Below, piece by piece: positions 1 through 60,163 of a stretch of 64,000 nt of DNA. How positions within the stretch are numbered: the stretch's first letter is position 1; every line of letters begins with the position of its first letter. The notes under the pieces were generated by a model. That model was not told the DNA's origin. It was given only the letters and a program-made list of their open reading frames with translations, and did no database searches. This DNA is from Corylus avellana (taxonomy: Eukaryota; Streptophyta; Magnoliopsida; Fagales; Betulaceae): the NCBI RefSeq assembly GCF_901000735.1, contig NC_081542.1, forward strand, positions 15,973,577 through 16,037,576. The letters are read 5' to 3'. Position numbers and translations under genes: made by a program.

Positions 1-2718
1 AATTGGCTCTTAAAGGTATGTTGAGAAATCCATCTTCAGCAGACAAACAAGCTTATAAATTGAGTTTGCACTTACTTTTCTGCTAGATCCTTGTATTTGT
101 CAGCATCTAGATTAGCAATCACTACATCTTCATCAGATTTAAATGCTGTAGCTACCTTTTCATAGGTCTGAAGCAACAAAGGAAAAACCCAGATCATTAC
201 AAGTGCAGAAGTTAAAAAGGCTCCGATCACAATAACCAAACAAAAGAGTTAAGACATACAGGAGCAAGGCTCTTGCAGTGACCGCACCTGCAACCGCAAT
301 CCATTAGATACTAACCAGTAATATAGAATTAAATAAAGAAATAAAGAAATACAGAAATCAATAACGAAATTCACTACCCATGAAGGAAGAAAGACCAACA
401 GTCTCTTAAAAGATGTTGATATTAAAAAGAGAGAAGAATAGGCATGCTTACCATGGGGCATAGAACTCAACCAAAACATCTTTGGTTTCATCCAATACAA
501 CCTCATTAAAATTATCAGCTGTGAGCACCACTACATTGGATGGAACTGTAGCTATCTTCACATTAGTCCCTGCAAACAATTGACCTCATTGAAAATTCTG
601 TGGTTATGCCGGTATATACACACACAAGAGAAAATAAAATAAGTAATTCCGGGGGATACAAGTTCCTAAAAGTGTGAGGAGGAAAATAATAAAGCACATA
701 ATCGTGTGTAGAAACACACTCTATGGTGACACATTCTTCAAGATGCAACAGGGAAGATAACAATACTACAAAATCATGTGTGGTAACCAGTTTTAGAAGA
801 TGCTAGTCTAACTGTAACACTTCGGTCTCATATTGGAAAGATGAGTAGCTCACATAGAGTGGATGATTTATAGAAAGACCCGCATTGCTTACTTACAAGG
901 TGAAACTAGGCTTTACAAGTGATTTTAAGGAATGTCTAAATTGATTAGTCATTTTAGAGGTGATGGCGCAGATGTGGCTAGCACTTTTCCTAAGTCATTG
1001 CACTAAACCTTAGAACTCATCTAAGGGCACAAAGGTAGAGCCAGAGACACATACATCCTCTAAAGATTACCTAAAGTGAGAGGTGCACATCGTACAATAG
1101 TGTCATACAAGTTAGGACTAACACGCATTCAGCGGGCTTCATAAAACGAAGCCATCAAAGTGAAAACCGAAAAGACCCTGAAGGTGCACTCACAAAATAT
1201 AAATGAATGACTAAATAAATAAAACAATTAGTTTTCTTCAAAAAATGCCTAATTGTAATTTATTTATGTCTAACCCTAAAATCCAACCAGAAGAAAATCA
1301 TTTTGGTTCACACGTTGGCACAAGGTAATTTTAAAGGAAAGGTATACTACCTCCTTCAGTATTCACAAACTCAGTGAGGGCTTCTGCAGTACGTGGTCCT
1401 TCATACCTATATACATATACATCATACAATTAATATTCATGAAGAGTAGCACATTATGTATGTGAGGGAACATTGACGAAAACTTTTCACAACTGTGTTG
1501 AATAGTTGAATTATCCTCACTTTTTAGGTTCCAACGATCCTTTTGGAAACCATTTAATGGTTGGATATCCAGAAACATCGTATTTGCTGCACAAGCTCTT
1601 CTGTTCATCGCAGTCCACCTACTCCACATTATCGAATCATATGTCATGAAGAATTCAACACTCAAGGCAATAGCATCGTATAAATCAGTTTGAAGAAACT
1701 TCATCACTAAAAAATAACATCTAATTGTTCACCATAGGCATAAAAAGATGTCATCAGATGAATATCACTAACAAAAATACGAAAATTAAATCATAAATAA
1801 GCAGTGCAACTACACTAACAAGTTTCTAAATAAACAAATGCAAACCATTGTAAAGAGCTTACCTTTCCAATCAAGACCGACTTGGCCTTTCTGAAACTTG
1901 TGCCGAGCTTCTCAAACTCTGGAGCAAGCTTTTTACAGTGCCCACACCTGTCACACAAACGAAATATCGATGTAAGTTTGACTTGCTGGGAAACTCTCTG
2001 TGGGAAACCAGAGTTTCCCACAAACCCACTATCAGAACAGAATAAACACTGAGATACAAATCTTTTCAATCCTTCTTAGAACCTTTCAGAAAATCTAAAA
2101 CGAGAAAAGAAAAAATAAAGAATATTCGAAAAGTTCCTTTCTTTATTACACAAAGTTTGAAATGGCTTAAAAGACACAAACTTAAACACAGAACCCAATT
2201 AGTAATCTTTAAAAGCTTCTCTTTTGCACTTTCGTAATTTATTTTTGACCCACCTCGAAATTTACTACAATGCAATACAATTTTTCATCCAAACACCTTC
2301 ACTGCATATATAATCGGACGAAACTCTAATAAATAAATAAGATTTAATCCCAATCTTATTCTTAAGCACCCAGTAACAAAATCCTTAAAAAAGTAGAAAA
2401 GAAAAATAAAAGAATCACAGAAATCAAACGCATCGGATTGAATAAAAGCCACTGAGCCTAAACCCAGATCTTACATAACAATAAAGCACCGATCCACTCG
2501 TCACAGTACAAGTTAAATCAAGAGCTGAAACAAATGATTAACAAGATAGAATCAAACGGGTACCATGGAGCGTAGAATTCGACAAGAGATCCTCGGTCCT
2601 GACCGACCTCTTTCTCGAAGTTCGCTTCGGTCAGCACAACGACGTCTTCTGCAAAGGCTGCAACGGCTAACAAGGCCAAGGTTCCAAAGGCCACCCAGAT
2701 CTGAAGAAGCTTTTCCAT
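1..2718 (-). CDS. PDIL2-1: Protein disulfide isomerase, PDIL2-1 type (5' part, runs off window)
   Basis: ER-lumen thiol-disulfide oxidoreductase that forms and rearranges disulfides in secretory proteins. Seven exons can be joined in frame on the minus strand: 2718-2564, 1947-1863, 1618-1521, 1406-1351, 569-452, 287-260 and 167-76, all with GT-AG introns. They give the first ~210 residues. The ATG opens a hydrophobic signal peptide ([10 protein letters not shown], cleavage near residue 23). Two thioredoxin domains follow, each with a CGHC active site, near residues 53-56 (a) and 172-175 (a'). In both, the Trp codon before CGHC is split by an intron at the same place. The stretch [20 protein letters not shown] is typical of plant PDIL2. 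Family members are ~360 residues and end in an ERp29c domain, which would lie before position 1. Family assignment is firm; the symbol is by resemblance. Confidence 0.93.
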
Positions 2719-3205
2719 CTCTCTCTGTTTTTTCGCTCTGTTTTTCTCTTTGCTCTGTACCAATGTCAAGTTTGGAAATGGGAATTTTATTTGTAGTTTA
2801 TTTTGACTTTTCTTGGAGCAACTGTGTTTTTGCTTGAGTAACGTGTCACAGTCCCATTGGTTATCAGAGGGGTGACGTGTTGTGGGTGACGTGTCGAGAT
2901 GTGAGAGGGCAGAGCTTGTGCCGGAGGAATTCGGTGGGGGCGTACACATAACTTGACTTGGCTTAACTTTTGGAACAAGAGATTTTTCCTTTTTTTTTTT
3001 CTTTTCTTTTTTTTTTTTTTCATTTGTCTTTTTTTTTTTTCTTTTTATGAGAGATGGGTAAATTTATCGTTATATCAACTGGACTTAACGACGCTTTCAC
3101 AAATTTAATGATAGATTTTAAAAAAAATGAATTATGAATGAGTAACATCACTCAAAAATAAAAATAAAAATAAAAAAGTCACGTCAACATCATAAGATAG
3201 TGGCA
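2719..3205. other. PDI upstream region and T-rich tract
   Basis: Upstream DNA of the PDI gene. It holds the ERSE and a T/C-rich low-complexity block at about 2988-3042. No further gene is visible. Confidence 0.6.
2842..2860 (-). promoter_or_regulatory. ER stress response element (CCAAT-N10-CACG) upstream of PDI
   Basis: The plus strand reads CGTG, ten bases, then ATTGG, which is CCAAT-N10-CACG in the orientation of the PDI gene, 124 bp before its ATG. This is the consensus ERSE bound in plants by NF-Y together with bZIP28/bZIP60. Two further ACGT cores in a TGACGTGT context lie just upstream near 2873 and 2888. Spacing is seen directly; function is inferred from the motif and the ER role of the gene. 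Confidence 0.65.
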
Positions 3206-3987
3206 GAATAAAAATATGCTAATTAAACTTTCTGATTCAAAGGTTGAACGCTGTCACATCAACATAATAGCATAAAAGTGAGATGAGAGATAAATATTTA
3301 GAATTAGTCTTACATAATAATTTTTTATCTAAATTAAATGAAATTCCTCTAATTTAGTATATTAAGGTATTATTTGTCCTCATTAGCGTTCTATAAGAAT
3401 TATATGTTCTAAAAATATGCTAGTTTTAAGTTAGAGAAAAACTTTGTCCATAATTAAAAGTCTTATATATACGATAGTTAGACCCAAATTTATGGACTTA
3501 ATCTGATATGGTGCTGTAACCGGGTCTATTAAAAAAACTCAAATGACGCTAGCACACAAGTTTTAATTTTCCAGGGACACAAATTTCATCTAAACCAGCT
3601 TGGATGAAATTTTATTCAATTTACTTTAATAAATAACAAGTGTAATCTAACATATTTGAGTTTCTCATAAATTAATATTTGGGTTCCTAAGTTAGTAAAA
3701 GGGTAACAAATCACTATTAAGAATGTTAAAGAAAACATGTGTCTCTTACATGGTGGAGGGACACTTGATTTGTTAAAAGAGAACTAAAGAACATGACTTT
3801 TGGCTAGTACCGAGGAATGTAGGAGTATTTCTAGGGTTCAAGTGAAAATCCAATTGGCAAATATTATGTTGGATTAAAGAAGTGGGTGGTGATCCATTTG
3901 TTTCATGGATCACGATCATTTTATGATCTAAATTAAATTTCACAAAATTAATAGTATATATATTATCATATGATATTATATCAAATA

Positions 3988-4150
3988 ATGCTACACACCC
4001 ACTTTCTTATTCCTATTTCCACTATTTTTAAGTAGCTTTGAAAATTACAAATGAATTTAGGATAATTTACTATTAAATTTTGATTTAATGATAATTTTAA
4101 AAGCTACCTAAAAGAGTGTGAAAAGAAAGTGAAGAAGTGCAAATGTGTAT
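3988..4150. mobile_element. Small inverted-repeat (MITE-like) element
   Basis: The two ends, TGCTACACACCCACTTTCTT on the left and a diverged reverse complement on the right, form arms of about 60 bp around an AT-rich centre. The second copy lies at about 7743-7906. Superfamily not assigned because target duplications are unclear. Confidence 0.5.
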
Positions 4151-4586
4151 ATATATTAACACAATGTATATTATTAAATACAACATAAAATAAATCATTT
4201 CCATTTCACTATTCCTCGTTTCATTGGATCCCACAACTATGGTTTATAAAGGGCAAAAAAAAAAAAAGGAATAAAAATTATAGACTTCAACATCCAAGTT
4301 TAATAAGAGTCAATATCAGTTAAGTACATGCCTTCGAAACCCTAAAATATCTAATAATGATACAAGCCAATATTTTGCCACATTCTATCTTCCATCAAGG
4401 GAATCATGATCATGACATGGTGAGAACCTAATTGTCCCGTCAGATCTCCCTAAAATACTTTCAAAATCAAAAATCAAAGATTTTGACAGCCAAGATTAGT
4501 ATTTAACTCTTGATAATAATCTTCTGGATTTTCATGAAGGCTTTTGCATCGCAGAGAGTACCTAATAGTGATATACATAACTCCCA

Positions 4587-6038
4587 TCAATATTGGGAAC
4601 TTCTCTCCCTACTCGCAGGGTGAGATTCGAGGTGCATTAAGGAATGATGCAGAATCTTTAAATCTTCTGCATATACCTTCTTCATGGACATTTGTGCTTC
4701 CAAGTCATCCAAATGACTGATGATCTGTAACCCCAAATTGCACTGAGTATAATCTTTGTTGGTCATCACTTCAGAGGCAGAGTCTCTAGAATGCAAACAG
4801 GCTGTCCATTTGCAGTCATCCATGCTCGTGTGGTTCAATCTGACAACCAAAGGCATACTCAACTGAGGAGAAAGATTATGGAAGTCATGTATTCTTACCT
4901 AACACTGACGAAAAGAAATCTGGCATCGTCAGCTTCATCTAATAGCATGTCCAGAACATTAAGTACTTTTGAAATACAAAAAAGACATAAGGAAAGGTAT
5001 ATAATGGGTAGTATTTCTTACTTTGTAAGTATGCTTTGTGCGTTTTTGTTGTCCTCCACACTAAACAAGGCATCCACCAATCCCTCCTTTGTCCTTACAA
5101 GCCCCTCCAAAAGACCAAATGACACGCATATAGAATGTATTGCTGAATCAGCAGTCTCTGAGCTGACGTTGCTAATCCTAATGGTAACAGTTTCCTCGAC
5201 ACGCAGAGGACAAATTGGTAGGATGAAGCTGCTCACTCTAATTCCACCAACAGCAATTGCTCTCTTGCAAGATTCTACACTCTTGAAGCATGCAAATTAT
5301 GTACTTATTAGACAACCACATGCAAAAATAGGTAAGGGAAAGAGGAGGGATGGATGACCAAAAAAACAAAACAACCAAAATATGTACCTCAAATTGGACA
5401 TAGCAGCAATTAAATTCATTTGGTTTACTAGTCATGGAAGCCTTAGAAATCTCCCCAAAAACTGAAAGTGCCTTTTTCAACAGGGAAAGGTTGATTGTGG
5501 AAGGGACATTCTCAACAGAAATAGAGCTTGAACTTTTGAAGTTAGAAACATTTATATTGGTAGGAGTACTAGAAATATTGACTTGGTTGTCTGGCTTGAG
5601 AGTAGGAGCTGGTGAAGAGTTAACCAGTTTTGATGAGACGCCCTTCGACCTGGGCTGACCTTCTGCAGGCAAAGACATGCGAGATGAAGATCTTTTTCTA
5701 GGTTCATCTTTCTGCTTAAAATTGAGATTCAAGGTTCGGTCAGAACTCACTTTACATTTTTTTAATGAGTATTCATGAAGATTCAACTATAGCGAACTAT
5801 TAATATAGAAATAGTGAATACATAGCCACACAGAATCCCAACAGTACACTATATGCATACCCTAAAACGGTCTGGCTTTTCTGTCTTCAATTTCAGATGT
5901 GTACCTACACCTTGTGCTACTGGTACGCCTAATTCAGACCAGTCATCATCTTCCTCAGAGGAACTATGGAGGGATCGCCTCAGGCTCTGAATGCCTTCTG
6001 ATTGGGTATTGGCCAGTATCCTTAGGTAAGATGTAGCC
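4587..6038 (-). CDS. RRM-domain protein gene, 3' four exons (copy 1, interrupted by gap)
   Basis: Probable RNA-binding protein of unknown role. Four exons join in frame: 6038-5861, 5786-5388, 5281-5022 and 4839-4587 (stop), giving 362 residues plus a split first codon. An acidic, serine-rich N-terminal part (SSSEEDDDWSELG) and a basic, proline-rich linker come first. An RRM follows with RNP2-like ISVENVP and RNP1-like CCYVQFE, running across an intron into SVESCKRAIAVGGIRV. A second degenerate RRM-like fold follows (IRISNVS, DALFSVED, then LNHTSMDDCKWTACL across the last intron). The C-terminus is a helical tail. The last acceptor is set at 4840 because it restores ILTK-LNHTSMDD. The 5' exons fall in or beyond the gap. 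No family name recognised. Confidence 0.72.
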
Positions 6039-6213
6039 CTAGTACAGAATTATCATTTCCTAAAGTTATTTATCTTAGCATTAAATCAACATCCACAAAG
6101 AAATGTTATTTGTTCTAATGTTTTAACCAGAAATGTCCAAAGGACTTATATCTACAAATTGCAGTGGAATTCGATTTAGCACTCTTAACATGGGGGGATT
6201 CATAACACTTTAA

Positions 6214-6244
6214 TTTGAATAATAATAATAATAATAATAATTAA
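6214..6244. repeat. AAT microsatellite
   Basis: Uninterrupted run of AAT/TAA triplets, repeated at about 9975-10000 in the second copy of the block. Confidence 0.9.
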
Positions 6245-6860
6245 AAGGTGTGCAGCAGATTGTTTTTGGATAAGTTAAAAGGGTACATAAATTTAATGAA
6301 GATAATGTATGTGTTCCATAACTTGAACAACCAGCTTAGCAGATGGCGTTACAATTGGACAACTGTGATCAGAGAAGCATTGAAGCTCTTGATGGTTATC
6401 AAAACTAAAACTCTTCCATGGCCGACTTTAGTACAACAATCTAACTGATAAGGTGCACCAAGACTATGCAGAGTAGAAATCAATAGAACAAGAAGCATTA
6501 AAGCTCTAACTATCATACTCCTTTGGTAAAACAATTGTACCCAAAATGCGTGCATCCTACAACTTCACTTTCTTCCATCAATTTTTTGCAAGGGTTCCAA
6601 CAATTTACAAGTGATATCAATATAATATATTGAGATTTTGGTAAAATTCGAATCATCAGCTATCATGGCCTGAAATACAAGCATCTTAATAATTAATTTG
6701 GATAAATTAGGGGCTTAGGGCTAAAACCCATAAATTTTCAGTTTCCTTTGTATTTGTCTACTAACTCTGCAACGATTCAATCAAAATATTAAGAAATGAA
6801 AATAAAAGTTTGTTAAAACCAGTCCAACTGCTTACCGAAAATAAAAACTTTCAACATAAT

Positions 6861-6960
6861 NNNNNNNNNNNNNNNNNNNNNNNNNNNNNNNNNNNNNNNN
6901 NNNNNNNNNNNNNNNNNNNNNNNNNNNNNNNNNNNNNNNNNNNNNNNNNNNNNNNNNNNN
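6861..6960. other. Assembly gap (100 N)
   Basis: Exactly 100 Ns, a common placeholder for a gap of unknown size, between two near-identical copies of the same sequence. Confidence 0.99.
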
Positions 6961-9900
6961 GAATAAAAATATGCTAATTAAACTTTCTGATTCAAAGGTT
7001 GAACGCTGTCACATCAACATAATAGCATAAAAGTGAGATGAGAGATAAATATTTAGAATTAGTCTTACATAATAATTTTTTATCTAAATTAAATGAAATT
7101 CCTCTAATTTAGTATATTAAGGTATTATTTGTCCTCATTAGCGTTCTATAAGAATTATATGTTCTAAAAATATGCTAGTTTTAAGTTAGAGAAAAACTTT
7201 GTCCATAATTAAAAGTCTTATATATACGATAGTTAGACCCAAATTTATGGACTTAATCTGATATGGTGCTGTAACCGGGTCTATTAAAAAAACTCAAATG
7301 ACGCTAGCACACAAGTTTTAATTTTCCAGGGACACAAATTTCATCTAAACCAGCTTGGATGAAATTTTATTCAATTTACTTTAATAAATAACAAGTGTAA
7401 TCTAACATATTTGAGTTTCTCATAAATTAATATTTGGGTTCCTAAGTTAGTAAAAGGGTAACAAATCACTATTAAGAATGTTAAAGAAAACATGTGTCTC
7501 TTACATGGTGGAGGGACACTTGATTTGTTAAAAGAGAACTAAAGAACATGACTTTTGGCTAGTACCGAGGAATGTAGGAGTATTTCTAGGGTTCAAGTGA
7601 AAATCCAATTGGCAAATATTATGTTGGATTAAAGAAGTGGGTGGTGATCCATTTGTTTCATGGATCACGATCATTTTATGATCTAAATTAAATTTCACAA
7701 AATTAATAGTATATATATTATCATATGATATTATATCAAATAATGCTACACACCCACTTTCTTATTCCTATTTCCACTATTTTTAAGTAGCTTTGAAAAT
7801 TACAAATGAATTTAGGATAATTTACTATTAAATTTTGATTTAATGATAATTTTAAAAGCTACCTAAAAGAGTGTGAAAAGAAAGTGAAGAAGTGCAAATG
7901 TGTATATATATTAACACAATGTATATTATTAAATACAACATAAAATAAATCATTTCCATTTCACTATTCCTCGTTTCATTGGATCCCACAACTATGGTTT
8001 ATAAAGGGCAAAAAAAAAAAAAAGGAATAAAAATTATAGACTTCAACATCCAAGTTTAATAAGAGTCAATATCAGTTAAGTACATGCCTTCGAAACCCTA
8101 AAATATCTAATAATGATACAAGCCAATATTTTGCCACATTCTATCTTCCATCAAGGGAATCATGATCATGACATGGTGAGAACCTAATTGTCCCGTCAGA
8201 TCTCCCTAAAATACTTTCAAAATCAAAAATCAAAGATTTTGACAGCCAAGATTAGTATTTAACTCTTGATAATAATCTTCTGGATTTTCATGAAGGCTTT
8301 TGCATCGCAGAGAGTACCTAATAGTGATATACATAACTCCCATCAATATTGGGAACTTCTCTCCCTACTCGCAGGGTGAGATTCGAGGTGCATTAAGGAA
8401 TGATGCAGAATCTTTAAATCTTCTGCATATACCTTCTTCATGGACATTTGTGCTTCCAAGTCATCCAAATGACTGATGATCTGTAACCCCAAATTGCACT
8501 GAGTATAATCTTTGTTGGTCATCACTTCAGAGGCAGAGTCTCTAGAATGCAAACAGGCTGTCCATTTGCAGTCATCCATGCTCGTGTGGTTCAATCTGAC
8601 AACCAAAGGCATACTCAACTGAGGAGAAAGATTATGGAAGTCATGTATTCTTACCTAACACTGACGAAAAGAAATCTGGCATCGTCAGCTTCATCTAATA
8701 GCATGTCCAGAACATTAAGTAGTTTTGAAATACAAAAAAGACATAAGGAAAGGTATATAATGGGTAGTATTTCTTACTTTGTAAGTATGCTTTGTGCGTT
8801 TTTGTTGTCCTCCACACTAAACAAGGCATCCACCAATCCCTCCTTTGTCCTTACAAGCCCCTCCAAAAGACCAAATGACACGCATATAGAATGTATTGCT
8901 GAATCAGCAGTCTCTGAGCTGACGTTGCTAATCCTAATGGTAACAGTTTCCTCGACACGCAGAGGACAAATTGGTAGGATGAAGCTGCTCACTCTAATTC
9001 CACCAACAGCAATTGCTCTCTTGCAAGATTCTACACTCTTGAAGCATGCAAATTATGTACTTATTAGACAACCACATGCAAAAATAGGTAAGGGAAAGAG
9101 GAGGGATGGATGACCAAAAAAACAAAACAACCAAAATATGTACCTCAAATTGGACATAGCAGCAATTAAATTCATTTGGTTTACTAGTCATGGAAGCCTT
9201 AGAAATCTCCCCAAAAACTGAAAGTGCCTTTTTCAACAGGGAAAGGTTGATTGTGGAAGGGACATTCTCAACAGAAATAGAGCTTGAACTTTTGAAGTTA
9301 GAAACATTTATATTGGTAGGAGTACTAGAAATATTGACTTGGTTGTCTGGCTTGAGAGTAGGAGCTGGTGAAGAGTTAACCAGTTTTGATGAGACGCCCT
9401 TCGACCTGGGCTGACCTTCTGCAGGCAAAGACATGCGAGATGAAGATCTTTTTCTAGGTTCATCTTTCTGCTTAAAATTGAGATTCAAGGTTCGGTCAGA
9501 ACTCACTTTACATTTTTTTAATGAGTATTCATGAAGATTCAACTATAGCGAACTATTAATATAGAAATAGTGAATACATAGCCACACAGAATCCCAACAG
9601 TACACTATATGCATACCCTAAAACGGTCTGGCTTTTCTGTCTTCAATTTCAGATGTGTACCTACACCTTGTGCTACTGGTACGCCTAATTCAGACCAGTC
9701 ATCATCTTCCTCAGAGGAACTATGGAGGGATCGCCTCAGGCTCTGAATGCCTTCTGATTGGGTATTGGCCAGTATCCTTAGGTAAGATGTAGCCCTAGTA
9801 CAGAATTATCATTTCCTAAAGTTATTTATCTTAGCATTAAATCAACATCCACAAAGAAATGTTATTTGTTCTAATGTTTTAACCAGAAATGTCCAAAGGA

Positions 9901-10616
9901 CTTATATCTACAAATTGCAGTGGAATTCGATTTAGCACTCTTAACATGGGGGGATTCATAACACTTTAATTTGAATAATAATAATAATAATAATAATTAA
10001 AAGGTGTGCAGCAGATTGTTTTTGGATAAGTTAAAAGGGTACATAAATTTAATGAAGATAATGTATGTGTTCCATAACTTGAACAACCAGCTTAGCAGAT
10101 GGCGTTACAATTGGACAACTGTGATCAGAGAAGCATTGAAGCTCTTGATGGTTATCAAAACTAAAACTCTTCCATGGCCGACTTTAGTACAACAATCTAA
10201 CTGATAAGGTGCACCAAGACTATGCAGAGTAGAAATCAATAGAACAAGAAGCATTAAAGCTCTAACTATCATACTCCTTTGGTAAAACAATTGTACCCAA
10301 AATGCGTGCATCCTACAACTTCACTTTCTTCCATCAATTTTTTGCAAGGGTTCCAACAATTTACAAGTGATATCAATATAATATATTGAGATTTTGGTAA
10401 AATTCGAATCATCAGCTATCATGGCCTGAAATACAAGCATCTTAATAATTAATTTGGATAAATTAGGGGCTTAGGGCTAAAACCCATAAATTTTCAGTTT
10501 CCTTTGTATTTGTCTACTAACTCTGCAACGATTCAATCAAAATATTAAGAAATGAAAATAAAAGTTTGTTAAAACCCGTCCAACTGCTTACCGAAAATAA
10601 AAACTTTCAACATAAT
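6961..10616. repeat. Copy 2 of the 3.65 kb direct duplication
   Basis: Begins at the first base after the gap and equals 3206-6860. It continues into unique sequence at 10617, so this is the copy joined to the right-hand flank. Confidence 0.9.
8343..9794 (-). CDS. RRM-domain protein gene, 3' four exons (copy 2)
   Basis: Same gene as at 4587-6038, with exons 9794-9617, 9542-9144, 9037-8778 and 8595-8343. The predicted exons are identical to copy 1; the C/G difference at 8722 lies in the last intron. This copy keeps its upstream DNA. A candidate first exon lies at 11185-11137 (MTMKPTLRACLSALFTG, followed by a GT donor), but its phase does not fit 9794 directly, so at least one linking exon is missing from this model. 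The visible N-terminal part is rich in Leu, Arg and Ser, which with the candidate first exon could suggest an organelle-targeting sequence; this is inference only. If the duplication is an assembly error, only one real gene exists. Confidence 0.72.
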
Positions 10617-11136
10617 CTAATGTCCAGTGCACATTCAGCAATCACCAGATTAAAAGTGTTCTGGTGGAAACTGTTTTTTATGTTTTTATGAGTGCTGTGT
10701 TTTGGTTGTTTGTTAATGTTTTTTGTTTAGAGAGGAGCAAACAAAAGATGGAAAACAAAAACTTTAAAAGTTCCTTCTTTTCTATCCAAACCCAACCTGG
10801 TATTTAATTTAACCATCATAATTTCTGATATATCCACATTGACAAGTGCATCACAAAACTAAAACCCTAAACCCTTTTGATATTTTGCTCAACCACCATC
10901 ATTTACGCACACAAACATACACATTCACAAACTAAAGCACTAGTACAGAAAAAAAACAAACAAACAAACAAATTCGTAAAACAGAGCTCCAATAACCTTG
11001 GCTTCGCGGAGAGGGAAACGACGCCGTTTTCGCCTGCGAATATAGCTACTTTTCAGAATCTAACAAGTTGGACTATTATTCGGGAAAGAGGCGAAAAAGG
11101 TGTAAAATGAGAGGGAGAGTTATGGTTAGGGTTTAC
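10617..11136. other. Probable intron or 5' region of the RRM gene
   Basis: AT-rich sequence with AACA/AAAC runs near 10948-10975. No linking exon of the required phase could be identified with confidence. Confidence 0.4.
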
Positions 11137-11185
11137 CAGTGAACAGTGCCGAGAGACAAGCTCGGAGTGTCGGCTTCATCGTCAT
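11137..11185 (-). CDS. Candidate first exon of the RRM gene
   Basis: Minus-strand ATG at 11185 opens MTMKPTLRACLSALFTG, then a GTAAAC donor at 11136. It is 49 nt long and leaves phase 1, whereas the next supported exon needs two bases, so an intermediate exon would be needed. It could also be a chance ORF. Confidence 0.35.
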
Positions 11186-11264
11186 CTTATGCGAACGTAC
11201 AGTTTTTTCTTTTCAATACTGAAAACTCGTCTTAGTTGGTCCTTCCCTTCCTATCTAATCCACG

Positions 11265-11309
11265 GAAGCCCAAGCCCAAGCTCAAGCTCAAGCCCAAGCC
11301 CAAGCTCAA
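11265..11309. repeat. Hexanucleotide tandem repeat AAGCYC
   Basis: About seven units of AAGCCC/AAGCTC, reading Lys-Pro/Lys-Leu in one frame. Simple repeat near the presumed gene start; no coding role supported. Confidence 0.8.
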
Positions 11310-11385
11310 AAGCACATCATGTTGGAGACCAAACTTCAGTACTTTGTATCTGCTTTGTGTGTATTATATTTTGTGCTTAAAGCTG

Positions 11386-11960
11386 TTGTGTCAAACTTTT
11401 ACTGAATGTTGTAACACCACGTCTAGATAGAATGGACTCTTTTATACATTAGACGAAAACATACTTTTTGTGGAGTTTGGAAAGCTTATTCAAAGGGCTA
11501 AATTTGTATTTCATGGAAAAAATTTCACCTTTGATGTTATAAGGCGAAAGAGTCTTAAAATGATCTGGTACAAAGATTGAAGATCTCATTCAATCAAAAC
11601 CAATCTAATTCAAACGAGAATGTGCGTCAAGTTTTCGAGAATGACTCGATTGTAGTTCCAATCAAACAGTGGATTAAAAGGACTTTTTAGGAGCATCATT
11701 CGCAATTGCGATCGAAAGGCGTTTGAATGAGAAAGCCATAGAGAGTTTCGATCAAAGTGTCATTCGAAGCTCGTTCAATCCCTACACACATAAACTGTGG
11801 AACCCTAATTTTGGTTCAACCCAAACTTATTTTGGTTCGAATGAGGTTGCGGCAAATTGTTTTAAGCAATTGACTTAGCCTAAAAGGTTATGTTTTCTCC
11901 CCTTCTATATAAGCCGCACATAGCACAACTTTTATATACTTAGAGAGACATTGTTTCATT
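11386..11960. other. Intergenic, possibly LTR-derived
   Basis: No gene seen. A TATATAAG box near 11905, with downstream sequence that resembles a retrotransposon transcript start, suggests an old LTR fragment. No matching second LTR or TG...CA ends were found. Confidence 0.3.
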
Positions 11961-13425
11961 GTTTTGTGAGCATTTTACCACTGTTCTTGAGCCTAAATAT
12001 TCAAAACTTTTCTTTGTTTTATCCTTGCCATTCAAATCATAGAAAACCTATAGTTACCAAAATTATGGGTTGCAGTAAACAAGGTTTGTTTATGTATGTG
12101 ATTTCTATAGAAGATGGCTAAAGGTTATGAAGCTACTGCGGTGGGAGGTGAACGTGTCATTTACCACGGTTGTAAGATTGGATTTTCAAAGTTACAAATG
12201 TTTTATAAGTCTTCTATAGTGGATGCCTTTAGAGTTAACTAGCTCCGAAATAGTTTTACTTTTAAAGAGATATTCAAAAGGTTTTTAATTTATTACCAAA
12301 AAAAGTGTGTTGATGATTTTTTTTTTAAAACAGTTCAATCTCATTCATTGATAAACGAGCATGAAGTTCAAACAACACAATGCAAAGTTTTGAAGCAACC
12401 ATAATTGAAGCTACGAGGTTACAAGCGTCAAAGATGATGTATTACATTTCAGACTCATACAAAATCCGCAAACCTATGACTAATTTTCAAATTAAACAAC
12501 AGATCTGCGCCAAACAGACACAAATCAATGCATAGATAGCTCTTATTCCTCAGTCTTGAGGGCAAAGAACCTCAAGCCAAAACTCATCATCTTCAACCCG
12601 AAAGCTAGGATAATGTTCACATCCACAACTTTGTCTAGACCAAATCAACTATCCAGAAGGGCATCAGGCGGGCAGATCGAGAGAGAGGACTGAGCATTAT
12701 TACAAGCAAAAAACAAAAATGATACAGGGAAACAAATCAAGACAGAAAAAAAGAAAAAAAAGAAAGAAAAAAAACCACACTAGAGCATGACAGCAGCCAA
12801 AAAGAAGAGCTGATCGCGCACTCGCCGGAAACCGAAAACGGAAGGGGCGTTGGGAGCTCATCACAGCGGGGGTGCGAGAAAAAGTCCCAGCAGAGGACGG
12901 TGGGTGGCGGAGCAGGGGCGGAGGAGATCGGCGGCGCACTCAAACGGAAGGGGAAGTTTAAGTGAAACCCCATGAAAACAAGTAGAAACAGCAAAAGCAA
13001 AAACATAAAGAAAGAAACACAAACTCTAGCCAAAAACAAGAAAATGAGAGAATACAAGAAAATAAAACAAAGAAACAAGAAACCCAAAACACAAACCACG
13101 TCGGGGAGGAAGGTTGCCGGGGAAAAATGGCCGGAACGCAAAGAACCTAGACGAAGCTGAAGAGGACAAGTGGAGGGGCGAGTGACGACGTGGGTTTGGC
13201 AAGGGTAGAAGATCGGGCAAAAAACGGCCGATCCAAAAGCCTAGAGCAAAAAAATGGGACCAAAGGAGGGGGAAGAGGCAGAGAGGAAAGGAAAGGAAAA
13301 AATCGCCCAAAGAGCTAGGGGCATCAGGCAAATAGGCTAGCTTGCTAAGAGAAAGAGGGCAATGGGAGGGGAGGGGAAGGGGGTGGAAGAAGAGGGAGAG
13401 GGTCGGAAGGTCGGAGGGGGGAGTT
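11961..13425. repeat. Tandem array, unit 1
   Basis: Starts at GTTTTGTGAGCATTTTACCA and runs to the next occurrence of that motif at 13426. It holds ~360 bp of host-like sequence and then a reverse-oriented retroelement. Units 2 and 3 have the same order with many scattered substitutions and small indels. Confidence 0.85.
12319..13425 (-). mobile_element. Non-autonomous poly-A retroelement (LINE-like), array copy 1
   Basis: On the minus strand the 3' end is TCAATGAATGAGATTGAACTG followed by a poly-A tail (poly-T at 12319 on plus). The 5' part is C/T-rich on that strand. There is no ORF with reverse transcriptase motifs, so it is either a non-autonomous derivative or only the untranslated parts of a LINE. 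It resembles the elements at 24372-25066 and 25195-25875. Confidence 0.65.
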
Positions 13426-14910
13426 GTTTTGTGAGAATTTTACCATTGTTCTTGAGCCTAAATATTCAAAACTTTTCTTTGTTTTATCCTTGCCATTCAA
13501 ATCGTAGAAAACCTATAGTTACTAAAATTATGGGTTTCAGTAGACAAGGTTTGTTTATGATTTCTATAGAAGATAGCTAGAGGTTATGGAGCTACTGCGA
13601 TGGGAGGTGAACATGTCATTTACCACGGTTGTAAGATTGGATTTTCAGAGTTACAAATGTTTTGTAAGTCTTCTATAGTGGATGTCTTTAGAGTTACCAG
13701 AATAGTTTTACTTTTAAAGAGATATTCAAAAGGTTTTTAATTTATTACCAAAAAAAGTGTGTTGATTTTTTTTTTAAACAGTTCAATCTCATTCATTGAT
13801 AAAGGAGCATGAAGTTCAAACAATACAATGCAAAGCTCTAAAGCAACCATAGGCGAAGCTACGAGGTTATAAGTGTCAAAGATGACGTATTACATTTCAA
13901 ACTCATACAAAATCCGCTAACTTATTACTAATTTTCAAATTAAACAGCAGATCTACGTCAAACAGACTCAAACCAATGCATAGATAGTTCTTATTCCTCG
14001 GCATTAAGGGTAGAGAACCCCAAGCCAAAACTCATTCTCTTCCACCCGAAAGCCAAGATAACGTTCACATCCACAACCCAAAGGTCTGGACCAAATAAAC
14101 TACCATGAAGGGCATCAAGCAGGCAGATCGAGAGAAAGGACCAAGCATTATTATAAGCAAAAAACAAAATCGATACAGGGAAACAAAACAAGATAGAAAA
14201 AAAGAAAAAAAAAAAAAGCCAGACAAAATTACAGGAAAATAACCAATAACAAAAAAAGCACACTAAGAGGATGACAACAGTCGAAAAGAAGAGTTGATTG
14301 CGCGCTTGCCGGAAACCGAAAACGGAAGGGGCGTTGGAAGCTCATCACGGCGGGGGGTGCAAGAAAAAGGCCCAGCAGAGGATGGTGGGTGGCGGAGCAG
14401 GAGCGGAGGAGATTGGTGACGCACTCAAATGGAAGGGGAAGTTTGAGTGAAACCCCATGAAAACAAACAGAAACAACAAAAGCAAAAACATAAAGAAAGA
14501 AACACAAACTCTAGCAAAAAACAAGAAAATGAGAGAATACAAAAAAAATAAAACAAAGAAACAAGAAACCTAAAACACAAACCACATCGGGGAGGAAGGT
14601 TGCTAGGGAAAATGGTCGGAACACAAAGAACCCGGACGAAGCCGAAAAGGACAGGCTAAAGGGTGAGTGACGACGTAGGTTCGGCAAGGGTAGAAGATTG
14701 GGCAAAGAACGGCCGATCCAAAAGCTTAGAGCCAAAAAAAGGGGACCAAAGGAGGGGGAAGAGGCGAAGAGGAAGGGAAAGGAAAAAATCGCCCAAAGAG
14801 CTAGGTGCATCAGGTAAATAGGTTAGCTCGCTAAGCGAAAAAGGGCAATAGGAGGGGAGGGGAGGGGGGAGGCAGAAGAGGGAGAGGGGAGGAAGGCCGG
14901 AGGGGGAGTT
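13426..14910. repeat. Tandem array, unit 2
   Basis: Second copy of the unit, with the retroelement at about 13766-14910 (-). The junction with unit 1 joins a GAGGGGGG run directly to the unit start with no clear microhomology. Confidence 0.85.
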
Positions 14911-15768
14911 GTTTCGTGAGCATTTTACCATTGTTCTTGAGCCTAAATATTCAAAACTTTTCTTTGTTTTATCTTTGCCATTCAAATTATAGAAAACCTA
15001 TAGTTACCAAAATTATGGGTTTCAGTAGACAAGGTTTGTTTATGAATGTGATTTCTATAGAAAATGGCTAGAGGTTATGGAGCTACTGTGGTGGGAGGTG
15101 CACGTTTCATTTACCACGATTGTAAGATTGATTTTCAGAGTTATAAATGTTTTGTAAGTCTTCTATAGTGGATGTCTTTAGAGTTAACTAGCCTCGGAAT
15201 AGTTTTACTTTTAAAGAGATATTCAAAAGGTTTTTAATTTATTACCCAAAAAAGTGTGTTGATTTTTTTTTTTTTTGAAACAGTTCAATCTCATTAATTG
15301 ATAAACGAGTATAAAGTTCAAACAACACAATGCAAAGCTCTGTAGCAACTATAGCCAAAGCTACGAGGTTACAAGCGTCAAAGATGACGTATTACATTTC
15401 ACACTCATACAAAATCCGCTAACCTATGACTAATTTTCAAATGAAACAGCAGATCTGCACCAAACAGACTCAAATCAATGCATAGATAGCTCTTATTTCT
15501 CTGCATTGAGGGCAGAGAACCCCTAGCCAAAACTCATTCTCCTCGACTCGAAAGCTAGGATAACGTTCACATCCACGACCCAAATGTCTGGACCAAATCA
15601 ACTACCCCGAAGGGCATCAAGTGGGCAGATCGAGAGAGAGGATCAAGCATTATTACAAACAAAAAACAAAACCGATACAGGGAAAGAAAACAAGACAAAA
15701 AAAAGAAAAAAGAAAAAAAAAAGTCAAACAAAATTACAGGAAAATAACCAACAACAAAAAAAGCACAC

Positions 15769-15891
15769 NNNNNNNNNNNNNNNNNNNNNNNNNNNNNNNN
15801 NNNNNNNNNNNNNNNNNNNNNNNNNNNNNNNNNNNNNNNNNNNNNNNNNNNNNNNNNNNNNNNNNNNNNNNNNNNNNNNNNNNNNNNNNNN
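15769..15891. other. Assembly gap (123 N) inside unit 3
   Basis: In unit 2 the bases between the corresponding flanks (14264-14496) number 233, so the true missing length may be about 233 rather than 123. Confidence 0.95.
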
Positions 15892-16303
15892 AAGAAACAC
15901 AAACTCTAGCAAAAAACAAGAAAATGAGATAATACAAGAAAATAAAATAAAGAAACAAGAAACCCAAAACACAAACCACGTCGGGGAGGAAGGTTGCCTG
16001 GGGAAAATGACCGGAACACGAAGAACTCGGACGAAGCCAAAGAGGACAGGTAGAGGGGCGAGTGACGACGTGGGTTCGGCAAGGGTAGAAGATCGAGCAA
16101 AGAACAGCTGATCCAAAAGCCTAGAGCGAAAAAAGGGGACCAAAGGAGGGGGAAGAGGCAGAGAGGAAGGGAAAGGAAAAAATCACCCAAAAAACTAGAG
16201 GTATCAGATAAATGGGCTAGCTCGCTAAGAGAAAGAGGGCAATGGGAGGGGAGGGGAGGGGAGGGGAGGGGGGAGGCAAAAAAGGGAGAAGGGAGGAGGG
16301 CCG

Positions 16304-16331
16304 GAGGGGGAGAACCTTTGTTCTCCCCCTC
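16304..16331. repeat. GC-rich perfect hairpin at the array breakpoint
   Basis: GAGGGGGAGAA, a six-base loop, then TTCTCCCCCTC: 11-bp perfect arms. The junctions of units 1/2 and 2/3 break inside the left arm of this palindrome. Confidence 0.75.
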
Positions 16332-36153: not shown

Positions 36154-36977
36154 GGGAAATTATATCTAAACAAGCCAAAAAATTTTTGTCTGTAAGTTTT
36201 TTTTTTTTTTTTCGACAATTTACTCCATGAGCTAATCGAAATTACAATAAAATCCATGCCGTCAATTTTTTTTTTTAATTGCTAGTAGATTGGTTGAAAG
36301 CTATTCATTTTATGTATAGAATAGCTAAATTTTTTTTTTAATTTTTAAGTTTATATATCACATGTGTGTATAGAAGGGTGGGAGCTGAGGCTAGGGTGGC
36401 TTCCCGGCCACCCCGAGGAGAGTCTTGACCACCCAAACCACGAGGGTAGCTGTGGCCCACAGGTAATTAGAGGTGAAAAGCCAGCTACTGGAGTGGTTTG
36501 GGGTGGCTTATGAGAGCTTTTTGCGGGCCCTCCCCTAAACCCAAGGGGTGACTTGCGGCCACCCCTAGGGTGGTTAGGGGCCCGCCCAAAACTACCCCCG
36601 GAGTGGCTCGCGGCCACCCCTAACTACCCAAGGGGTGGCCGCGAGCCACCCCTTGGGTTTAGGGGTGACTTGCAGGCCACCCCCAGCCCTTGGGGGTGGC
36701 TTCTGGCCACCCCAAGGGTGGGTTGCCCAACCCAGGGGTGCGCTGGGGTGGCTTCCGGTCACCCCTTCTATTTTTTTTAATTAATTTTTAAATAAAAAAT
36801 TATTATGCTAACATGACAAAACGGTGCGTTTCAATCAATCTAATGGTAGTTAAAAAAATTTAATGATAGGAATTTTTTTGTTATTTCGATTGACCCAGGG
36901 AATAAATTGTCGAAAAAGAAACTTAGGGACAAAAAATTTTTGGCGTATTTACCCAAGGTGTTTAGATATAATTTCCC
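36154..36977. mobile_element. Mutator-like non-autonomous element, 9-bp target duplication
   Basis: The arms start GGGAAATTATATCTAAACA at both ends (inverted) and run for about 115 bp. AAAAAAATA is duplicated exactly at 36145-36153 and 36978-36986. The core is very GC-rich, with repeated GGGGTGGC / GCCACCCC words in both orientations. Long arms plus a 9-bp duplication are the Mutator hallmark. ORFs in the core are repeat artefacts. Confidence 0.8.
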
Positions 36978-42144: not shown

Positions 42145-43713
42145 CTTGGACTTAAAATCTGTCACAATAATCAGTGAAACCCTGCCATTAAACCCAATCT
42201 AGTAAATCTAACAATATTTTAGCAAAGATAAGAGAATTGAAAGTCGAACAAGACCCCCACCTAAGCTTAACTAAAGCAGTAAGAGAAAAACTGGTGGACA
42301 GTAATTTTTCTTAACGTCGCAATTCCTGGAATTTGTAGAGATAATTTCAGATGATTCTTTTGGGAATTGGAACCGCCCAAATTCGAACTAAGTAAAACCC
42401 TAACCCTCAGTTAGTCAGTTTGGTTGCCGAGAAAGAGAGTGGAAAATAACAAAATGCCCATCCTATTTGAAGCGCACCGTTTTATATGCATATTCAAGTG
42501 TCACTCCAATTACATGAAATTGCGTGTGAACAAATTCTCATTTTCAAATCATAGGGAAAATAGTATATTGCATTTTTAAAAATCAAGTTTCATTATTTGC
42601 ATTTTTTTAAACCATACGTTTTGAATCAGCTAAATCAAACGGACCCTAAGTCTCTTAATTATCAACAAAATTATTAAGGTTAAAATCTAAATGTAAATTG
42701 TACATTATGAGTTAGATTTTAGGTTGGTTAATTCAATGTTCAAAACATTTTGGTTTAATGAAAAATTTGATAGGCTAAGTTATGTGCTTGGGCTAGCTTT
42801 TTAAACTTGCACGTTTTGTTGACGAATCGAGTCATTCGTTTGCTAGCTCGTTCAATTTTGGTCCAGACGGAATGATTAGGGCCAACTCAATAGAGTTTAA
42901 GGCCTAAGGCTACAATTTTAAGTGGGGTCTTTTATATATTTAAATATTAATTAAATAATATTAATATCAGTTTTTAGTTTATATTATTTCTATTTTCAAA
43001 GAGCACCATATTGATGGATCGGATAGTTTCATCTAAAATTCGTCCTACTCCTACCACTCTAACCTTTTCTCTTTTCTCACCCTCGACCTAAGCTGTGCAG
43101 AAAAGGCCCAAAGTCATTCCCAAGGAACAATGGAGCATTAAATTAGTCTCGATTGATAAGAGAAAAACATGAGAATAACTTATATAGGAAAGTTACACAA
43201 AAGATGAGTTTTGTGCCATCAATCAGATGGCGACACTTAATCTAAACTTACTAAATTTAATTTTTTTTTAAAAATGCCTAATTACACCAGATTATATCAC
43301 ATATAAAAAAAAAATTGAAAAGGTGGCTAGCTAGCCACCCCTTCCCCCACTTGGGGTGGCCGGCAGCCACCCAAAGTGGGCTGGCCACCCCTTCAATTCT
43401 GTGTTTTTTTTTTAAAAAAATAATAATAATAATAATAATAATTTTTTATTTTATCTAGAGTATAATCTAGTGTGGTTGAGTTTTTGTTTTAAGTATAAGT
43501 TTAATAAAATTAGCTGATATGTTAGCTTTTTGTTAGTGACACAAAAGGTGACGTTTGTGCAACATGTGCACCCAAGCCCCTCTCGAAAAACATATGTAGA
43601 TCATTGGTAAAATCATATTCAAGATTCCCCGTTCTTCTCACGTTTTGCTTTTTCTTTTTTCTTTTTTTTAAATGATATGTAGATTCATCTATATTACGAT
43701 ATATTTTATTTCA
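42145..43713. other. Intergenic with a GC-rich GGTGGC block
   Basis: GGTGGCTAGCTAGCCACC and similar inverted words at about 43322-43400 match the core of the Mutator-type elements at 36154 and 62620-63110; an AAT run follows at 43413-43441. The ends of this copy were not resolved. Confidence 0.45.
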
Positions 43714-43869
43714 AGAGTGATGATTCACATCACGCCGGGCATGCATGAACAGTCATGCACGCCCGGTTAATTTTTTTTTTTTTAATTTTTTTTTTTATAA
43801 TTAAAATATTAAATCAGCCGGGTGTGCATGACTGTTCATGCATGTCCGGCGTGATGTTTATCATCTCTC
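43714..43869. mobile_element. 156-bp foldback element with 9-bp target duplication
   Basis: Two arms of about 55 bp (core CATGCATGAACAGTCATGCA in both) surround a T-rich spacer. TTATTTCAA is duplicated exactly at 43705-43713 and 43870-43878, which points to a miniature Mutator-type element. Confidence 0.75.
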
Positions 43870-44496
43870 TTATTTCAATAGACGACATATTTTGTTGGCC
43901 TTTGCAAGAAAAAGTCTCAAAACACTTAGAAAGAGTAAAAACCTAGATTCAAAATTGAAATAAGAACCTAGATTCAAAACATTTTCAATATTATTTTTAG
44001 GGTCTTTACAGCATTTACAACGATTAAATCAACTAAAATCTTTATCAAATACACATGTCTATTCCAGCTTTTACATGTTTAAATTCTTGTTGTTTATAAA
44101 CATGAGCAAAGGAGAAGTTGGCCGTGGTCATAGGTTTTCACCTAATACAAAGTTGTTTGTTTTAATACGTAAAACCCACAACAATTGGTAAAAGAATCAG
44201 TTACAAAACCGACCAACTAGAATTTCTGAATTAATTACAGTTGATCACATTCTGTCACGTGAACGTAAACAAAAGAAGGATGAATTGACCTTTCACTCCC
44301 GCATTTCTTCTATTTTATAAAACCATAAACTTTTGTTTGAAAAAATTAAATTTATTTAGCGTGATCTATAAATTAACATATGTCCTTAAAGTAATACGAT
44401 TAACAAAATTTATAAAATTTTGATTACAATATTAGCATTGGAGATAGAGACGTCTATTACGATACTAAATGTCTCATATAGCTAAAGTGCAATTTC

Positions 44497-54782: not shown

Positions 54783-55413
54783 TTATAAAAATATTTTGAC
54801 AAAAGGCAATTTTCTTGATTGCCTTGCTGCTACACCATCAAGAAATCACCTTGCAAAAATCAGAAAAGGTTAAAATGCAAAAAAAAAAAAAAAACTGCTC
54901 TACTTTTTGATTTTCATGGATTTGATGATATTTTAAGAGAATTTCCAAAAGTCCTCAAAGAATAATTTTATGGTTATACCAAAGAACCAACAATCCAGGA
55001 ATTAAGATGCTGATTTATGCTACCCAAGCAAGAATTATGCAAGACTTCTAGAAAATAAGTGTTGGTTAGGGCAATTTTTTAGCAAGCTCCCAAGCCCTTT
55101 GTTATCCTTAAGAACTTTACCTAGCATTGGTGAATAAGCAAAGTGACATTCCTTCCTTAAAAGGAGGCAAAGTGACAATTGTTGTTAACACAGTACCAAT
55201 ATTATTATATTTCATAGACAGGGAAAGGATTCCTACTTTTGACATTTGACATATTTAATCGTACATTTTCTCTTTGTTGCTAAGTATTTGTTCAGTCCTA
55301 CACAACTTGGCCGGGAAGAATCCAAAGTACTTAAACAAAGAGAAAGCACACAGGGCCTGGCTCGATTGTTATCCAGATACTGCCTTCCCTAATAAAGGGA
55401 AACCAATATGAAA
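54783..55413. other. Intergenic
   Basis: No feature recognised apart from a poly-A run near 54878. Confidence 0.4.
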
Positions 55414-57516
55414 CTACAGATTTATTTTACCTGCCAAGTACCATGAGTGCATGGCTAGGCTGCCAAAGGCCATGATATTAGCAAGGGATGATAACCCATG
55501 AATCATCCCAAATTTCTTGTTCATGGCTGCAAGCTTTGGGTTCACTTTTGCAACTTCAACGTTCTTTGTCCACCCAACTTCTTCCCCAATGTTTGATTCC
55601 CTCTCCACCTTATGTCTTTGCTTCATCATCTGCACCACAAGAAAGAAACATGAGAGACTAATCAAAAACTCCACGAACATGGACTTTGTAGTCGATATCA
55701 TTTTTGGCATGAATAAAAAAGAGCATTACTCAAACCAAACTTACAAATGAACTACTCAAGCCTCTTCATTGAGAGTCACAGAAGTGCAAAGACAGAAAAA
55801 AGAAATCAAAAGATTATAACTTGATTTTAAACTATTTACGACCCAGATTAAGTGTGTGATTCTTCACTATTTGGGACTAAAAAGCATCGAATCAATTGAA
55901 CGTAATACAATCATTTGGCTAAAGCTCGCCATTAAGTTAAATCGTAAACAACATGAAGCATAAGGATCAGAAGCCTTCTAAAAGATATTGTTAAGTTCAA
56001 TGACTAGTTAGAACCTACACGTATGACATATAGTCATATATATAGGGAGCTAAACTCTCTCATATTTTGCAGTTTCTCATGAGTATATAAGCAAAGTAAT
56101 TTTCACATCACCTTATAAAAACCCTGTCAAAGCAAATAATGCTGCTGGATGTATCTTTTACATATAGTTTTAGATTTAAGTGTTGCCTTTAAATCCCTTC
56201 ACCCACAAACATACACACACACACACACACATGCAACATAGGATTTGAGAATGCTAGAGGCCACCTAGCAGAGGAGATGTAATCCACAAATAGAGATTTC
56301 ATATTAATTTACAGTTGGGAAAAATCAGAAAAACCATACCGCATAACTATAAACATCACAAATTCACATTGCATAAATGTCCAAAAGAACTTGGAACTTA
56401 GAAGAAATTCACCTCAATGGTCATGGGTGTAAATACAAACAAATTGGCGAGGTTGAATGCAAACGAAGACAGCAAGAAACCAAGCTGGTACTTCTCAGCA
56501 GTAGATGACGACTTCCATGGATGCAGATACCCAAACGACCCCGCTGATATTGCACAACAGACCCCAACCATGGAGAAATACGCAGGAAACATCTTGCTTT
56601 GCAGATTTCCAAACTGATGCCGTGGAAGATTCCTAAATTGCCAAACGAGTTTTTAACAAAAATAGTTTAGGAAAATGCTACTCATACAAAACTTTCCTAA
56701 GAAATGACATAGATAATCTATTACAAGCCACATTTAATTTGGCGCACAAGGAGTACCACTCCATAATTCTGTATTAACTTTTTGTAAGACTTGTTTGTAT
56801 GGCATTGCATCTACAAATTATTATACATCACTCTATAATTATATTGGGTTTGCCGAGCCAATAATCCAGAATTGAAAAGAAAGCCAATCGTTGAACCTTA
56901 AAGCTTTATCTCTTAAGCATTTAGATAAACATTAAACTAAGCTAAAAATTGAGCATAGGAAAAACCTCTCGGTTATCTCAATTTAACTTTGCAATTTCAA
57001 AAACCAAAAATAACCCAAAACAAATCCCTTCAAATTCCTTGTCTTTTTTTCAGAATTCTTTATCCTAACACTTTCTCACTAACCAAACATAGCTTAAACC
57101 CTCTACTTAATTTTTAAGTCTCAAAATTCTAAATCATCTGCGAACCATTGCGTAATTTTTTTAAAAGCCCAACACAAATCTTACATCTTTCTAAATAAAG
57201 ACAATCATAACACGCACAAAACTGAAAACATGTAATTCCTTTTTTCTGGGTAACCCAGCACGGCCTTAGTGGCATAATAAGAACAAGGGACAAGGAGAAA
57301 AGAGGGGTACTTGAACATGATGATGCCGCCGATGAAGGTGACCCAGAGAGCGGATCCAAAGGCCGTGGAGAAGCTCAGAAGATGCGCCAGCTTGAGATAG
57401 ATTGCAAACTTCGTCGAATTCTGACCGTCCGATTGCGATCCGAACGTCTCCGGCGAGAATATCACTCCGATCGCCAAGAACGCCACTGCCGCTAGGAATC
57501 GCGTTAGCCAACCCAT
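55414..57516 (-). CDS. TMEM205-like (DUF4149) membrane protein, copy 1
   Basis: Small multi-pass membrane protein; plant members have often been labelled LEA-family but the domain is DUF4149/TMEM205-like, function unknown. Three exons: 57516-57311, 56632-56413 and 55629-55414, in phase, 213 residues. Hydrophobic spans: FLAAVAFLAIGVIF, AHLLSFSTAFGSALWVTF, YFSMVGVCCAISAGSFGY, FLLSSFAFNLANLFVF and ANIMAFGSLAMHSWYLAG. A loop with MMKQRHKVERE follows the fourth. It is a tandem paralogue of the gene at 58908-59819. A CT repeat just before the ATG lies in the probable 5' UTR. Arabidopsis At3g62580, as I recall, is a same-length homologue next to PLIP3. Confidence 0.88.
56214..56232. repeat. AC microsatellite in intron 2
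   Basis: ACACACACACACACACACA run inside the second intron of the DUF4149 gene. Confidence 0.85.
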
Positions 57517-58907
57517 CTGTCTCTCTCTCTCTCTCTCTGGGTCTGTGAAATGAAGCTTGAAGAAAAGGGTAGGTTTTATATCTATTGCAGCGCAGGTGCA
57601 CCAACGCGAAGAGGATGGGTTTGACCTTTGAGTTTTTTTGTGAGAATTTACGTCGAGTTGGTGGAGGATGCAAATGGGAACGTGCCACGTTGCGATATTT
57701 TTCTGTTTCTTTTCTACCAAAGCGGGCAATTAATCTGACCGGCACCAACCGTCTAAATGGGTCCTCGTTGGCAACAAATATCCACATGGTTTTTGGGCTT
57801 TGTATCTAAATTTAGGAAAATACAGTGGGCTGGTCAATTCTTTTGGTTAGTTTTCTAGTAAAATCAACAAATCAAAAAAAAAAAAAGTCTTATCCGACTA
57901 ATCACATTGATTAACGAAATAGTTAGCTGCTACAATTTTTAGCAAATTTGTTGAGCATTTAGCTTAAATTGCATAAAAAAAAATACATATGGTTCTCTTT
58001 CTCTCTCCTCTAAAGATGCAATTTAAAAAGCCTCAGCCCAATAGGTGAGGCAATGAAGAGTGAGCCATTAAAGCTAAAGCCCGTTTCAACCATGTGAAAA
58101 TGTTTCTGCCCAATAACTCCATTTTGTTGATGATGTGAGGGTATCATGATATTTCTGTGAGTGACACCAATGGAGGTGAACAAACTACGTAAATATATAC
58201 TCTTGTGCATTTTTTTTCTTGTAAGTTGATTTTCACATCTAAAATTTGTATTATTTTGTATTAGAGTCGAATACTGTTTGGTTCCATAAGGGGCGGAGCC
58301 AGAAACTATTATGGGTAAGGACCAGGAGTCAAAAAAAATTTGCTAGTAAAGGACTAGTTGGCTGAATTTTTTTTTTATTATTATAAGGAATTGGAGGGGG
58401 GCCATGTACCAATCCCCCCTCCCTCCGTCCCTATTCCATTGTCTATTGTTTGTTTACATTTTCATCTCTCCATAGTCTTTTTCATTTGGGTTTTGTCGAT
58501 AGAGAACCCACTCTATTTCGTTTATTTTCTCCCTTGTAACTCTTGTCCCATTATTGAATTGGAAAAAAAAAAAAAAGCCGTTATGGGTTTGAGTTACAAA
58601 AAGAGCAGCATATGAACTAGATTAAAATACAGATAGGTGAGTAAAACCGCTAAAAGAAAATTAACAAGCATCAAATCCATATCAATAAAGTAGACCGTCA
58701 TGATCATCCTAAACAACATATAATAGACAAATTCTAAAGGGAAAGCTCATATATATAATGATATAATTGAAGAGGAAAACAATTGTTATCATGTAATTAA
58801 TTAAAGGGGACTTTGTCATGATCTTATGAATCATTACAATGTTCAATCGTACAGAGTTTTTGTAATGTTCCCCAATAAAGAAAAACCAAATTGAAAGTAG
58901 AGATTAA
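57517..58907. other. Spacer between the two DUF4149 genes
   Basis: Holds the upstream region of copy 1 (CT repeat at 57518-57538) and the downstream region of copy 2. A short ORF at 58358-58615 has no support. Confidence 0.4.
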
Positions 58908-59819: not shown

Positions 59820-59945
59820 TTCTCTCTCTCTATCACTCTCTCCTTGCAGAATGAAGGTTGAAGGTGATCTACAGCTTGGTAGAGGTTGGGTTGCTAACCG
59901 TTGACTGTCATACCCATCTCTCTCTCTCTCTCTCTCTCTCTGTGT
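59820..59945. repeat. CT microsatellites upstream of DUF4149 copy 2
   Basis: CT runs at about 59820-59846 and 59920-59942 lie in the probable 5' UTR/promoter, as in copy 1. Confidence 0.7.
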
Positions 59946-60063: not shown

Positions 60064-60163
60064 NNNNNNNNNNNNNNNNNNNNNNNNNNNNNNNNNNNNN
60101 NNNNNNNNNNNNNNNNNNNNNNNNNNNNNNNNNNNNNNNNNNNNNNNNNNNNNNNNNNNNNNN
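60064..60163. other. Assembly gap (100 N)
   Basis: 100 Ns. Unlike the first gap, the two sides do not share sequence. Confidence 0.99.

Follow-up and report, generated by a model that had tools for sequence, protein, structure and literature searches.

Two copies of a 3.65-kb sequence stand on either side of a 100-N gap in the Corylus avellana assembly, and they raise the question of whether the chromosome carries this DNA twice or the assembly prints it twice. The window (the whole stretch of DNA that was analyzed, 64,000 nucleotides) is C2:15973577-16037576; C2 has 50,858,233 bases, and the assembly has 369,928,215 bases in 12 sequences. Three runs of N lie in the window, at 6861-6960 (100), 15769-15891 (123), and 60064-60163 (100), and the copies surround the first of these:

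3206..6860, strand., copy 1, at the right end of the left assembly piece, putative redundant overlap, 3655 bp
6861..6960, strand., gap of 100 N at the join; C2:15.90-16.10 Mb has four gaps of this exact length, this one included
6961..10616, strand., copy 2, at the left end of the right assembly piece, same putative overlap, 3656 bp

When the window was compared with itself, the two copies aligned at 99.918% identity over 3656 columns, with 2 mismatches and 1 gap. Copy 1 runs up to the last base before the 100 N and copy 2 starts at the first base after them, leaving 0 bp over on each side. A base-level alignment placed the differences at 4254/8010 (an extra A in a homopolymer A run of copy 2), 4966/8722 (C/G), and 6821/10577 (A/C); both substitutions are transversions. 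Copy 2 is offset from copy 1 by 3755 up to the homopolymer and by 3756 beyond it. A first-pass annotation had described 3.65 kb printed twice around the gap, with flush borders, an offset of 3755-3756, one homopolymer length change, and two substitutions. Self-comparison and base-level alignment bear out this description, and every figure in it is right.

We then determined which gene parts are repeated. The gene inside the repeat served as query for a protein search, and the 21 proteins retrieved included P0003, "uncharacterized protein LOC132170623 isoform X3 [Corylus avellana]," which was 100% identical over 73% of the query. Window positions 1-12000 were searched by tblastn with P0001 (Carpinus), P0002 (Alnus), P0003 (Corylus), and P0004 (Castanea), giving an RRM gene of at least six exons:

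8346..11185, minus strand, RRM-protein gene LOC132170623 (Corylus avellana), exons 1-5 from P0003 and exon 6 from the P0001 alignment
11185-11137, minus strand, exon 1 with the start codon, letter-for-letter part of P0003
11033-10997, minus strand, exon 2, letter-for-letter part of P0003
9794-9617, minus strand, exon 3, letter-for-letter part of P0003
9467-9144, minus strand, exon 4, letter-for-letter part of P0003
9037 to ~8777, minus strand, exon 5, matches P0003
~8595-8346, minus strand, exon 6, P0001 alignment
4590..6038, minus strand, second printing (tblastn), exons 3-6 only, no exons 1-2 and no start codon
10617..11185, minus strand, right flank beyond the repeat: part of intron 2, exon 2, intron 1, and exon 1

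Joining exons 1-4 at GT-AG borders gives an exact match to that part of P0003. Exons 3-6 align in both copies with P0001, P0002, and P0004, and P0003 shows exons 3-5, without exon 6. Exons 1 and 2, with the start codon, occur once within window positions 1-12000, to the right of copy 2 and outside the repeat (tblastn). The earlier claim that the RRM gene is counted twice therefore holds for exons 3-6 and fails for exons 1-2. The right border of the repeat (10616) lies inside intron 2, and on the left the repeat stops between the last exon found (ending at 4590) and a neighboring thioredoxin-fold open reading frame (ORF) (2518-3063; Pfam PF00085, E value of 0.00037, 20.9 bits, below the cutoff of 23.5). 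By the exon model, neither substitution changes coding sequence, as 4966/8722 falls in intron 5 and 6821/10577 falls in intron 2. The RRM_1 domain scores over the Pfam cutoff in the Carpinus protein (28.9 versus 20.7 bits) and just under it in a single hazel exon ORF (19.3 bits). Because the right piece carries all six exons found, merging the two pieces would remove only the headless second printing of exons 3-6. P0003 ends at ~8777 by reading through intron 5, and the Carpinus and Alnus proteins go on into exon 6; isoform X3 may be an intron-retention model.

The first-pass annotation had argued for a probable unmerged contig overlap from the flush borders. Both borders do fall exactly at the gap, but flushness on its own does not settle the matter: an assembly can break off at a genuine repeat as well, and the borders would then be flush too. 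Recurrence at neighboring gaps therefore carries more weight than flushness. As a control, we used C2:15.90-16.10 Mb, which includes the window letter for letter and has six runs of N, four of them exactly 100 N long. Near-identical flanks of 3.5 to 3.7 kb meet at the gap in three of the four 100-N gaps of this 200-kb stretch, including the gap under study (15980437; 99.918%). At 15950054, the flank pair measures 3528/3539 bp, is 99.35% identical, and is flush on both sides (C2:15946526-15953692, L013-L014), with 7 transitions, 1 transversion, and 3 indels scattered along its length. At 16068663, the pair measures 3655/3618 bp, is 97.6% identical, and is flush on the left (C2:16065008-16072879, L025-L026); an unmatched head of 499 bp opens the right piece, and the differences are 24 transitions, 8 transversions, and 9 indels. 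At the fourth 100-N gap (window positions 60064-60163), no flush flank repeat was found; this and the 499-bp head at 16068663 count against an assembly artifact. The three overlaps fall within 130 kb. Their left copies are of strikingly similar length (3528, 3655, and 3655 bp), and successive 100-N gaps are separated by pieces of 30, 53, and 35 kb.

Gaps of other lengths served as a comparison. None of the five examined had a near-identical flank pair meeting at the gap; these were gaps of 123 N and 20 N in the 200-kb stretch, a gap of 150 N (L006) examined on just 1961 and 1050 bases of flank, and two gaps of 20 N in C1:30.00-30.03 Mb, for which the self-comparison listed matches of at least 200 bp. 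At the 123-N gap (15769-15891), no flank overlap flush on both sides was found; its right flank matches array units at 87 to 88%, and the matches stop 860 and 2348 bases short of the gap. The array itself (11959-16312) has three direct copies of a ~1.47-kb repeat, 87 to 90% alike, and spans this gap in the self-comparison. By arithmetic on the self-alignments, the true hidden length behind the 123 N would be ~190 to 235 bp. A megablast comparison of the 200 kb found, among repeat pairs of at least 800 bp and at least 90% identity, only the three gap pairs and one pair of the diverged 1.47-kb array. Flush overlap goes with 100-N gaps; the sample of such gaps comes from one 200-kb stretch and is small and local, and a 30-kb stretch of another contig had no 100-N gap.

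The recurrence at three gaps fits an artifact of the joining step better than three independent tandem duplications. We consider it very likely (probability of roughly 0.95) that two assembly pieces with overlapping ends were placed in a row without being merged and that the duplicate of the gene parts is not real. The earlier suggestion of an unmerged overlap is thus supported by the recurrence at three of four 100-N gaps, versus none of five others, and by the headless exons 3-6. By this mechanism, one 3.65-kb part of the hazel chromosome would form the end of both neighboring pieces, which would have been set side by side with a 100-N placeholder. The 100 N would mark the last scaffolding step, which presumably left the overlapping ends unmerged, and the real genome would have one copy. 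The few differences between the copies would then be errors or allelic variants.

If the overlap is an artifact, the copies could represent both alleles of a heterozygous tree (heterotype) or the same allele printed twice with errors (homotype). The neighboring overlaps look allelic, at 99.35% and 97.6% identity with both substitutions and indels. The pair under study differs only by the homopolymer change and two transversions, of which one lies 39 bases from a contig end, and errors fit these differences at least as well. A low-diversity allelic pair is possible. We regard the heterotype as a tentative reading, somewhat short of even odds; this estimate is not additive with the others, since the heterotype is compatible with an unmerged overlap.

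A genuine tandem duplication, very recent and ~3.65 kb or more in length, with an unassembled inner junction that left both copies abutting the gap, is very unlikely. The two copies do differ slightly, and assemblers would break at near-identical repeats, so that flush borders alone do not exclude such an event. However, a 200-kb stretch would then hold three separate near-identical duplications of ~3.6 kb, all sitting at 100-N gaps and each with its own level of identity. The apparent real case in the window (55.4 to 59.8 kb, and beyond the gap at 60064) is, moreover, only 77 to 89% alike and is not flush with the gap. Stated in full, and just as improbable, the duplication would have copied the four 3′ exons of the RRM gene and the downstream DNA, so that the intact gene and the thioredoxin-fold gene now flank a headless copy. 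In that case, copy 1 would contain a 3′ fragment of the RRM gene that lacks its head, and neither a start codon nor a promoter is in view for it. The diverged tandem pieces at 55385-59841 recur ~5.7 to 8.9 kb beyond the 100-N gap at 60064 and overlap an ORF with a DUF4149 match below the cutoff. Together with the pieces beyond 60163, they look like a real, older tandem duplication.

Chance cannot be the source of a 3.65-kb match at 99.9%, and a chance repeat or transposon is ruled out by searching the genome with the copy's leading 995 bp (40 of 791 candidates scored, so that match counts are lower bounds): only two of at least 43 listed matches, the two copies themselves, were full length. 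The other matches, at least 41, were partial and at most ~195 bp long. Most of them, at 77 to 83% identity, come from a repeat-family stretch of ~165 bp at 3575-3741 (and 7330-7496), which is probably a short transposable element. Elsewhere in the window, the self-comparison listed imperfect palindromes at 36532-36665 and 43713-43871 and an inverted pair at 60870-61088 and 62368-62586 (80 to 88%), all probably small transposable elements. Searches of the window found no RNA families at gathering score and no tRNAs.

The unmerged-overlap reading has a practical consequence for users of this assembly. The likely source of the window, the hazel 'Tombul' assembly, is described as a 370-Mb, chromosome-scale assembly from Illumina and PacBio reads (PMC8695561), and its file name is given as GCA_901000735.2_CavTom2PMs-1.0 (PMC11683083). 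If the local rate (three of four 100-N gaps in one 200-kb stretch) holds elsewhere, many joins would carry a false tandem duplication of several kilobases. Exon and gene counts would then be inflated, variants would be hidden by ambiguous read mapping, and work on recent duplication or on the uniqueness of guide RNAs could be misled. The value of the observation is practical; biologically, it is ordinary and offers no new biology.

False duplications of this kind have been described before. Duplicated overlapping contigs (DOCs) were defined by Kelley and Salzberg in 2010 as pairs aligned over >300 bp at >95% identity within 300 bp of both contig ends (PMC2864568). The hazel pair aligns over 3656 columns at 99.918%, far over the 95% threshold, begins and ends 0 bp from the contig ends, and has only the 100-N run between its pieces. 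The pair at 15950054 also lies within the end limit (0 and 0 bp), and the pair at 16068663 falls outside it (0 and 499 bp). In the same paper, mate pairs fit better once the contigs were merged for 5,698/5,947 DOC pairs in chicken, 13,159/13,571 in chimpanzee, 1,094/1,366 in cow, and 8/22 in dog (PMC2864568). As base rates, the figures reported there for chicken, chimpanzee, and cow count for an artifact at the hazel gap, and the dog figure counts against it. The final call on DOCs was made with mate pairs, whereas the hazel pair is known from sequence alone; both have adjacent pieces aligned at their very ends, producing a false segmental duplication around a gap (PMC2864568).

A second account names, as hallmarks of false duplication, a gap between the copies, low read depth, discordant read pairs, and one-copy k-mers, and it divides such duplications into heterotype (allelic) and homotype (error) (PMC9516828). 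The duplications in that account were called on depth, discordant pairs, and k-mers, whereas the hazel pair was called from its letters only (PMC9516828). The first hallmark, an assembly gap between the copies, is present at the hazel locus. Like the heterotype and homotype duplications described there, the hazel pair has its copies on one scaffold with a gap between them and repeats parts of a gene, giving a putative false gene gain (PMC9516828).
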